A stretch of 52,671 nucleotides of DNA from Bacillota bacterium (GTDB taxonomy: Bacteria; Bacillota; Clostridia; Peptostreptococcales; Anaerovoracaceae): positions 1 through 52,671 of the forward strand of contig JAQXRN010000200.1 in the NCBI GenBank assembly GCA_029218545.1. The letters run 5' to 3'. Below are positions 40,048-43,473 of this stretch, one piece after another (positions within the stretch are counted from its first letter, which is position 1; each line of letters begins with the position of its first letter). The translations under genes were made by a program, and so were the position numbers. The notes under the pieces were generated by a model. It ran no database searches. It worked only from the letters and a program-made list of their open reading frames with translations, and was not told the origin of the DNA.

Positions 40048-40757
40048 TGAAAAATCTAATTAAATACTTAGAAGAGAATAACATTCCTTTCGATGATGAT
40101 GTTGTTAGAAAATTTGAAGAATATCGAAGCGGAATTCTTAAATGGAATGAGTTTGTTAACCTTACTGCAATAGTTAATCCCGAAGAATTTACAATGAAGC
40201 ATTTTGTTGATTCCGTTACATGCTACAATCTTGCTGAATATCAAGATGCTTCAAATGTCCTTGACCTAGGCACCGGTGCGGGATTTCCAGGGGTTCCCTT
40301 AGCAATTCTTTCACCTGAAAAAGAGTTTACTCTTGTGGATTCATTGAATAAGAGGTTAAAAATTATCAATGAGCTCTGCGAGAACATTGGCATAACAAAT
40401 GTAAGAACTGTACATGGGCGTGCAGAAGATTTGGCAAAAAATAAGGAGCATAGAGAAAAGTACAGTCTTTGTATTTCTCGCGCGGTGGCAAATCTCTCAA
40501 CTTTAAGTGAATATTGTCTTCCTTTTGTTGGAAAAGGTGGATACATGATGGCGTATAAAGGTGGAGATGGCTTGAAGGAAGCCGAAGACGCAAGAAATGC
40601 CATAAAAATTTTGGGCGGCGGACTGCATAGGATAGTCGATACTCCAATTGATGAAAAGGCAGAAGCTCATAAAATATTAATAATTAAAAAAATTGCAGAC
40701 ACTCCGTCGAAATATCCCAGAAAAGCTGGAAGCCCGTCGAAAGAACCCTTAAAGTAA
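40047..40757 (+). CDS. rsmG: 16S rRNA (guanine527-N7)-methyltransferase RsmG
   Basis: VLDLGTGAGFPGVPLAILSPEKEFTLVDSLNKRLKIINEL; GTG start. Confidence 0.95.
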   Translation: MKNLIKYLEENNIPFDDDVVRKFEEYRSGILKWNEFVNLTAIVNPEEFTMKHFVDSVTCYNLAEYQDASNVLDLGTGAGFPGVPLAILSPEKEFTLVDSLNKRLKIINELCENIGITNVRTVHGRAEDLAKNKEHREKYSLCISRAVANLSTLSEYCLPFVGKGGYMMAYKGGDGLKEAEDARNAIKILGGGLHRIVDTPIDEKAEAHKILIIKKIADTPSKYPRKAGSPSKEPLK

Positions 40758-40775
40758 AACTTTAGGGGTTTTTTG
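40744..40775 (+). terminator. Terminator overlapping the rsmG stop
   Basis: aacccttaaagt-aaa-actttaggggttttttg. Confidence 0.75.
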
Positions 40776-40839: not shown

Positions 40840-41676
40840 ATGGAACGTGTAAGAAAAGGGCTGTTTGGCTTAAAAAATGAAGAAAAAAATAATCTGAATG
40901 TTGTTTCGGTTCCCATGTCAATTATCGAAGCAAATCCGGAGCAACCGCGAAAAACTTTTTATGATGAAGCACTAATTGAATTGAGTGGTTCTATTAAAGT
41001 ATATGGTGTATTGCAGCCAATTCTTTTAAGAGCCAACGGAAAACATTATTCCATCATAGCAGGGGAAAGACGTTTCAGGGCTGCTCAAATGGCAGGGTTG
41101 ACAGAGATTCCTGCAATAATAAAAGATATGGAAGATCAGGAAGTTGCATTCATAGCTCTCGTAGAAAATGTTCAGAGAGAAGATCTGAATTTTCTTGAAG
41201 AGGCCAGAGGTTACAAAAAACTTATGGATGATTTTGGCCTTACCCAGGTTGAAATTGCAGAAAAGATGAATAAAAAACAATCTACCATTTCAAATAAAAT
41301 CCGAATTCTCTCGTTGCCGGAGGATATACAGGAAAAAATATGCGAGAACAATTTAACTGAACGGCATGCCAGAGCACTGCTGAGATTAAACGATGAGGAG
41401 GACAGGAGGAAGGTAATCTTAAGAGTTATTGTCAACAAGCTCAACGTAAAACAGACCGAGAAACTTGTTGAGGAGATTATTACGAAGAATACTGAAAAAG
41501 CAAGGAAAATCAACAAGATCAACTACATAAGCTATAAGATATATGTCAATACTTTGAGAAAAGCATTTGACCAGATAAAAGAAATGGAAAAAAATGCCAG
41601 ATTCGTTCAGGAAGATAAAGGGGACTTCCTGGAAGTAAAAATCATTCTGCCTAAAAAAGATAGATGTTTCACGTGA
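40840..41676 (+). CDS. noc: Nucleoid occlusion protein (ParB-family paralogue)
   Basis: ParB-like NPEQPRKTF, GERRFRAA, LVENVQREDLN; recognition helix KKQSTISNKIRIL is Noc-like, not ParB-like (GKSRPYITNSMRLL); short basic/hydrophobic N-terminus MERVRKGLFGLK as in membrane-targeting Noc. Confidence 0.88.
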   Translation: MERVRKGLFGLKNEEKNNLNVVSVPMSIIEANPEQPRKTFYDEALIELSGSIKVYGVLQPILLRANGKHYSIIAGERRFRAAQMAGLTEIPAIIKDMEDQEVAFIALVENVQREDLNFLEEARGYKKLMDDFGLTQVEIAEKMNKKQSTISNKIRILSLPEDIQEKICENNLTERHARALLRLNDEEDRRKVILRVIVNKLNVKQTEKLVEEIITKNTEKARKINKINYISYKIYVNTLRKAFDQIKEMEKNARFVQEDKGDFLEVKIILPKKDRCFT

Positions 41677-41692
41677 AACATCTATCTTTTTT
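41653..41692. repeat. 40-bp perfect zero-spacer palindrome (terminator-like) containing parS
   Basis: aaaaaagatagatgtttcac|gtgaaacatctatctttttt; contains the noc stop codon. Confidence 0.95.
41665..41680. promoter_or_regulatory. parS: parS centromere site, perfect consensus
   Basis: TGTTTCACGTGAAACA. Confidence 0.96.
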
Positions 41693-41760
41693 TATAATAG
41701 GGTGGCAAAAAAGTAAAAAGTATTATATAATATCTGCATATCAAAACAGGAGGAAATATT

Positions 41761-42531
41761 TTGGGAAAAGCAATAGCAATATTTAATCAGAAGGGCGGAG
41801 TAGGAAAGACAACAACAAATATTAACCTTGCTGCCTGCCTTGCGTTAAAAGGGAAAAAGGTTCTTGTCCTAGATATAGACCCACAAGGCAATACAACTAG
41901 CGGACTGGGAATCTCAAAACGAGAACTTGAGGAAACAGTATACAGCATTTTGGTAGATAATGATTATGACCCTAGAAAAGCCATTATCCACACAGGGGTA
42001 GAAAACCTTGATCTAATTCCGGCCAGCGTCGATTTGGCAGGAGCAGAAGTAGAGCTTGTCCAGGTTGAGGGAAGAGAACGAGCGCTGAAAATCGGGCTTG
42101 ATAAAATCAAAGATGATTATGATTATATTTTTATAGACTGTCCTCCATCATTGGGGCTTCTGACTATTAATTCATTGGCCGCAGTGGACAGCGTTCTTAT
42201 TCCAATTCAATGTGAGTTCTATGCGCTTGAGGGCGTGAGCCAGCTTGTGAGCACAATTGAACTGGTAAAAAAGAGCCTAAACCCATCTCTTGAGGTTCAG
42301 GGAGTTATTCTAAGCATGTTCGATGGCAGAACTAATCTGTCAGCTCAGGTTGTACAGGAAGTAAAAAAATACTTTGGGGGAAAAGTGTATTCTACTGTCA
42401 TTCCGAGGAATGTAAGATTAGCAGAGGCACCAAGCTATGGCTTGCCTATTACAGAATATGATCCTAAATCAAAGGGAGCAGAAGCTTACATGGAGTTTGC
42501 GGAAGAGTTTCTTGATTTAGAGGAGGAATAA
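41761..42531 (+). CDS. parA: Chromosome partitioning ATPase ParA/Soj
   Basis: AIFNQKGGVGKTTTNINLAACLALKGKKVLVLDIDPQGNTTSGLG; TTG start after aggagg. Confidence 0.97.
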   Translation: MGKAIAIFNQKGGVGKTTTNINLAACLALKGKKVLVLDIDPQGNTTSGLGISKRELEETVYSILVDNDYDPRKAIIHTGVENLDLIPASVDLAGAEVELVQVEGRERALKIGLDKIKDDYDYIFIDCPPSLGLLTINSLAAVDSVLIPIQCEFYALEGVSQLVSTIELVKKSLNPSLEVQGVILSMFDGRTNLSAQVVQEVKKYFGGKVYSTVIPRNVRLAEAPSYGLPITEYDPKSKGAEAYMEFAEEFLDLEEE

Positions 42532-42532
42532 T

Positions 42533-43450
42533 ATGGCTACAGCAAAAAAAGGTGGACTGGGAAGAGGACTGGATGCTCTCTTTGCAGATGTTCCTGTAAA
42601 AGAACCAGCAAAAAAGGCAACAACAAAAGTCGAAGGAAACAACATCGAAGAAAACACCTCTTCAGAGAAGGATTCTGTGAAGTATATTAAAATCCATGAT
42701 ATAATGCCGAATTTAAATCAGCCAAGAAAAGTTTTTAATGAAGAAAAAATAGAAGAGTTGGCGGCATCTATTAAGGAACATGGAATTATACAGCCTATAG
42801 TGGTCAGAAAACATAAAAAGGGATATGAAATTGTAGCAGGTGAAAGAAGATGGCGTGCTGCAATGAAGGCAGAGCTTTCGCAGATCCCTTGCCTTGTAAG
42901 AGAGCTTGATGATGAGCAGAATATGCTTATTGCAATAATAGAAAATATGCAGCGTGAGGATTTGAATCCTGTTGAAGAAGCTGAAGGTTTGCGCCAGATG
43001 ACGGATACTTTCGGAATGACACAGGAACAGGTTTCAAAAAGTGTAGGAAAGAGTAGACCATACATTACAAACTCCATGCGTCTTTTAAAATTACCTGATT
43101 ATATTAAAGACAGTCTGTCTAAAGGAGAAATTACGGCGGGACATGGAAGAACTCTTGTAACAGTATCTGATGAGGATGAAAGAAAAAAGCTCTGGAACAA
43201 AATTGTTACGGAAGGTCTTTCGGTAAGAGAAGCAGAAAAACTTGTGTCAAAGGAAGCAAAGAAACCAAAGAGAAAGTCTGCGGCCAGAAAAAAAGATCCT
43301 AATGTTGCAAGAGTAGAGGAAGAGTTAAAAGGAATACTTGGAACCAAAGTAAACATTAACAGAACCGGAAACAAGGGTAAAATTGAAATAGAATTTTATT
43401 CCGGTGACGAGCTCGAAAGATTGCTGGAAATATTGAAAACCCTAGGTTAG
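42533..43450 (+). CDS. parB: Chromosome partitioning protein ParB/Spo0J
   Basis: GLGRGLDALFADVP; NQPRKVF; AGERRWRAA; IENMQREDLNPVEEA. Confidence 0.97.
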   Translation: MATAKKGGLGRGLDALFADVPVKEPAKKATTKVEGNNIEENTSSEKDSVKYIKIHDIMPNLNQPRKVFNEEKIEELAASIKEHGIIQPIVVRKHKKGYEIVAGERRWRAAMKAELSQIPCLVRELDDEQNMLIAIIENMQREDLNPVEEAEGLRQMTDTFGMTQEQVSKSVGKSRPYITNSMRLLKLPDYIKDSLSKGEITAGHGRTLVTVSDEDERKKLWNKIVTEGLSVREAEKLVSKEAKKPKRKSAARKKDPNVARVEEELKGILGTKVNINRTGNKGKIEIEFYSGDELERLLEILKTLG

Positions 43451-43457
43451 AGGAGCA

Positions 43458-43473
43458 TGTTTCACATGAAACA
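43458..43473. promoter_or_regulatory. Second parS-like site (15/16 match)
   Basis: TGTTTCACATGAAACA. Confidence 0.75.

Follow-up and report, generated by a model that had tools for sequence, protein, structure and literature searches.

The window analysed here, a single stretch of 52.7 kb (52,671 nt), carries the gene order mnmE, mnmG, rsmG, noc, parA, parB and a DUF1294-like gene. The labels mnmE, mnmG, rsmG and DUF1294 are presumptive ones that we assigned from the ORF sequences, and the identities of noc, parA and parB were checked against protein families. These three genes all lie on the forward strand: noc, encoding a Noc-type ParB paralogue, at 40840–41676, parA (soj) at 41761–42531 and parB (spo0J) at 42533–43450. 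The best family for the noc product is NCBIfam TIGR04285 (Noc), yet its score of 296.9 bits stays below the cut-off of 315. Specificity for the NBS type of site has been assigned to residues Q173, K179/K184 and R201, one of the two lysines being enough (PMC7383237). Read by eye, the Noc protein of the window (KKQSTISNKIRILS...TERHAR) carries Q173, K179 and R201 of the NBS type and a serine at position 184, and its ParB (GKSRPYITNS...TAGHGRTL) has the parS-type residues R173 and G201 in the same numbering (PMC7383237). Because Noc carries NBS-type and ParB parS-type residues, ParB rather than Noc would be the expected reader of the parS site at 41665–41680, which adjoins the parAB operon in this rsmG-noc-parA-parB neighborhood. 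NBS-like sites (ATTTCCCGGGAAAT, at most two mismatches) occur 30 times in the whole genome (G000) against 8 for the reversed pattern, an excess which suggests that a putative Noc system is in working order.

The end of noc runs into a gap-free perfect palindrome of 40 bp, AAAAAAGATAGATGTTTCAC|GTGAAACATCTATCTTTTTT, at 41653–41692. Its arms (41653–41672 and 41673–41692) are 100% complementary with no spacer, and no other perfect palindrome in the window comes near its arm length of 20, the runners-up having arms of 11, 10 and 9. At its center, at 41665–41680, lies an exact copy of the 16-bp consensus parS, TGTTTCACGTGAAACA, the predicted ParB loading site, for which 0.05 matches with up to two mismatches are expected by chance; the assembly holds no second exact copy. 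The palindrome thus consists of a parS core and a complementary arm of 12 bp on each side; given parS, another 12 matching pairs would arise by chance with a probability of about 1e-7 at the composition of the window, and RNA of the region folds far better than its shuffles (z = -7.7). The last five codons of noc and its TGA stop (41674–41676, forward strand, frame TGT TTC ACG TGA) fall within the palindrome, the stop lying inside parS itself and the protein ending in ...KKDRCFT. The initial annotation, made from the letters of the DNA, had described a perfectly symmetric 40-bp element around a consensus parS from which the noc stop and last five codons are read, and both the full complementarity with the exact 16-bp match and the end of the noc ORF at 41676 bear this out.

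Besides this site, the assembly has just one parS with no more than one mismatch, the variant TGTTTCACATGAAACA at 43458–43473, just 3′ of parB and outside any extended palindrome. The DUF1294-like gene probably starts inside this second parS, with the ATG at 43466 within CACATGAAA; a relative (L004) has a matching reading frame that begins there. Five relatives (G002–G005 and G098) retain a version with two mismatches in the corresponding position.

When transcribed in the sense of noc, the element is predicted to fold into a hairpin at 41659–41686, GATAGATGTTTC-ACGU-GAAACATCTATC, in which parS makes up the loop and upper stem and the arms the lower stem. Directly after this hairpin (GATAGATG...CATCTATC) come seven T at 41687–41693, and on the other strand the A6 tract at 41653–41658 is the corresponding U-tract, making a possible bidirectional terminator. 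A stable hairpin with an immediate U-tract, as expected of a terminator, is therefore present at the gene end at 41659–41693. A stock terminator scan made no call at the palindrome (41653–41692), probably because the scan's rule for stems counts the U-tract as part of the stem. We used a fixed rule of our own design, not trained on this clade, which strips terminal A-U pairs and asks for at least three G-C pairs in the stem, an energy of -6 kcal/mol or lower and at least five T within the next eight nucleotides; it calls a terminator on both strands of the window element, the A-U rich hairpin having an energy of -14.8 kcal/mol. Elsewhere in the window, the stop codon of rsmG lies within an ordinary terminator hairpin at 40740–40774, and parS is thus not the only place here where a stop codon falls within a terminator.

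To see the element among its relatives, a pattern search over the family, the order and the phylum yielded 209 distinct parS sites, picked by the parS core and not by palindromicity, each printed with 30 bases per side. Each of the five further species in the genus has parS at the same position at the end of noc, with paired arms that include substitutions such as G-U. Elsewhere in the family, other genera have arms of quite different sequence that are still complementary, for example AAAACCGGGAATG/CATTCCCGGTTTT (L016) and TTAGGAATG/CATTCCTTTTTT (L014). The noc stop lies inside parS in seven genomes, namely five of the genus together with two others (L136 and L161), and in L016 and L052, whose proteins were read, it sits 4–13 nt before parS. 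Perfect extension by at least 5 bp past the 16-mer was found at 39 of 125 sites of the family, where swapping flanks between loci gives an expectation of 1.0, and at 7 of 40 sites in the order and 6 of 44 in the phylum (0.5 expected in each). The idea that AT-rich flanks of parS pair by accident could appeal to the six outermost pairs of the window element, all of which are A-T, and is left with a negligible probability by the 1e-7 estimate for the 12 extra pairs and by the swapped-flank, shuffled and slid controls in relatives, which rule it out. Nor do the noc codons account for the conservation of the arms, since the 3′ arm does not code for protein and sites after rsmG show the pattern too.

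Within the family, 51 sites lie at gene ends, which here means upstream of parA and no more than 75 nt past rsmG or noc. Here 271 Watson-Crick arm pairs were counted against 167.6 ± 8.8 with swapped flanks, and swapping also weakens the median hairpin energy from -14.3 to -9.2 kcal/mol. A gap-free alignment of these sites, restricted to the eight arm pairs outside parS, gave a covariation score of 0.576, compared with 0.243 ± 0.026 after shuffling (0 of 500 shuffles reached it) and 0.145–0.245 in slid controls; kinship within the family inflates such counts, which are not fully independent, and the slid control preserves this relatedness. In the same alignment 75.2% of arm cells pair (55.8% shuffled), and changes on both sides occupy 106 cells where 41.8 are expected and occur in all eight pairs. 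As many as 21 distinct 5-nt left arms are found among the 33 sites extended by at least 4 bp. The first of the refuting results named in the initial annotation, a lack of conservation of the arms outside parS in related genomes, did not occur; what the relatives keep is the pairing and not the sequence, and T-tracts follow the stems, as they do at 37 of the 51 sites.

These data also bear on the possibility that the arms serve DNA binding only, either as an extension of the ParB site or by forming a cruciform that aids loading, with the resemblance to a terminator being incidental. The core is after all an exact parS, and A-T is the commonest pair directly flanking it (42 of 51 sites), which could be a preference of ParB. 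However, the arms vary freely in sequence while staying complementary, which a sequence-specific contact would not permit, and extensions of at least 4 bp are common after gene ends (33 of 51) but rare at parS elsewhere upstream of parA in the family (3 of 27). The strand adds to this: where a stem of at least 2 bp is first broken, the mismatch on RNA in the rsmG/noc sense is G-U at 16 sites and A-C at one (p = 0.004 against the background ratio in swapped flanks), a bias that DNA pairing would not favor, and T-tracts follow the stems. A role confined to DNA binding is thus very improbable, and since the breaks are G-U and not A-C on the sense RNA, the pattern points to selection acting on the sense transcript.

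By the fixed rule, a sense terminator is called at 31 of the 51 gene-end sites, where swapped flanks give a mean of 11.4 and a maximum of 17. An antisense terminator also qualifies at 19 of these 31 sites; the suggestion that the element is terminator-like in both directions thus holds as a potential of the sequence, with the G-U bias pointing to the noc/rsmG-sense RNA as the selected strand. Among the 58 family genomes in which both the upstream gene and parA are in view, 32 have a parS-terminator, comprising 17 of 18 with noc upstream and 15 of 40 with rsmG upstream. As 20 of the 51 sites fail the rule and most genomes of the rsmG type are without a parS-terminator, the pairing of parS with a terminator is common in the family but not obligatory. 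A second terminator within 300 nt occurs in none of the 32 parS-terminator genomes and in 6 of the 26 others (Fisher p = 0.006), a mutual exclusion that fits one terminator substituting for another. It could be argued that the hairpin shields the noc mRNA against exonucleases at its 3′ end without terminating transcription; a hairpin could act in this manner, and sequence alone cannot distinguish protection from termination. However, a terminator would be expected to have its T-tract right behind the stem and to exclude other terminators, as is seen here, and we regard protection by itself as improbable.

The same design is also met outside gene ends upstream of parA. It is present at 9 of 49 parS sites located 3′ of parB (0.7 expected), and in another family (L168) an unrelated ORF that ends at 1542 is followed by a parS at 1590 that forms a hairpin with a T-tract. 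One genome holds further copies of parS in strong G-C hairpins followed by T-tracts (CCCTG-parS-CAGGG; L135 at 2258 and G018:C69:12112), which sit several kb from parAB. At L154 (about 1579–1669) neither parS is a terminator, and half-parS pieces, GTGAAACG...CGTTTCAC, pair as a hairpin that is followed by a T-tract.

Downstream of the element, a parA promoter is predicted at 41702–41731 on the forward strand (GTGGCA, 18 nt, TATAAT). The arrangement GTGGNA-18-TATAAT between the element and parA is found in many members of the family. Its conserved -35-like hexamer GTGGNA, set at an 18-nt spacer from TATAAT and shared by many genera of the family, is unusual. Since this conserved promoter of its own lies directly downstream, parAB need not rely on read-through from noc, and the element may be viewed as a divider between the upstream unit and an independently started parAB.

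The hairpin with its T-tract, the covariation of the arms, the position at the gene end and the mutual exclusion with other terminators were all found in these genomes, and we judge it very probable that parS here forms the upper stem of an intrinsic (Rho-independent) terminator which ends noc and divides it from the parAB promoter. The initial annotation had proposed one element acting as parS, gene end and terminator just upstream of parA, and this proposal gains support from pairing conserved across the family with T-tracts following. Transcribed into RNA, the 16-bp parS would supply a ready-made hairpin tip, UGUUUC-ACGU-GAAACA, and seven T, together with the twelve complementary bases that flank it on either side, would complete the terminator and end noc transcription; within the genus the parS core also provides the noc stop codon. 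With parA starting at its own promoter some 20 bp further on, the element would form the boundary between the noc unit and parAB. Each noc transcript would entail one passage of RNA polymerase over parS, after which the hairpin would form and the transcript be released at the T-tract just beyond. From the expected footprint of the terminating polymerase over parS we infer that ParB, if bound at this site, would alternate with termination in the cell, loading and termination taking turns on the same DNA.

A further step, raised in the initial annotation as an effect of ParB loading on noc termination and parAB expression, would be that ParB on parS regulates the terminator, acting as a roadblock or altering polymerase pausing and so tuning noc termination and parAB expression, through read-through or through the adjacent promoter. 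The location of parS inside the hairpin, only about 20 bp from the conserved parA promoter, speaks for such regulation. Effects of ParB on neighboring genes vary by species: at parS3 and parS4 of Pseudomonas aeruginosa it represses them, but in Bacillus subtilis loss of Spo0J left the expression of parS-adjacent genes unchanged (reviewed in PMC7022226). Moreover, parA owns a promoter, and the sequence cannot tell regulation from plain sharing of one palindrome; we therefore hold the regulated version to be unlikely. There is likewise an outside chance of a putative physical switch, in which ParB at parS alters upstream termination or parAB expression, or a terminating polymerase clears or times ParB loading, with centromere activity thereby coupled to the transcription of the segregation genes.

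The element shares with chromosomal parABS (Spo0J/ParB and parS) the exact 16-bp consensus beside parAB, and differs from a standard parS by the extended palindrome, the T-tract and the stop codon inside. With ordinary intrinsic terminators that overlap a stop codon it shares the hairpin and U-tract at a gene end, whereas its hairpin tip is a fixed, predicted protein-binding site. The closest precedent is the DNA-uptake-signal (USS/DUS) terminators of Neisseria and Pasteurellaceae, where a DNA signal with an unrelated job has been co-opted as a terminator hairpin (PMC1852404; PMC2397512). The USS/DUS stem is built from two inverted copies of a non-palindromic signal and recurs in hundreds of places; at 41653–41692, in contrast, one palindromic copy is found, with parS as the tip, the lower stem being free covarying sequence, and sites are few per genome. 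In the open-access literature we found no description of parS terminators, and an older subscription paper could exist. What we rate as the new aspect is a dual-use terminator whose fixed part is a centromere site.

The parS site is among the most conserved DNA sites of bacteria and is usually viewed as purely protein-binding. In this bacterium and many of its relatives, a single element of 40 letters probably combines two roles that have nothing to do with each other, those of segregation mark and transcription stop. If parS regularly doubles as a terminator hairpin, transcription would shape where parS is placed and what flanks it, terminator predictors and parS annotation would overlap, and parS deletions made in segregation studies would also remove a terminator and shift the expression of neighboring genes. 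The sharing of one stretch of DNA between ParB clamps and RNA polymerase would then become directly testable.
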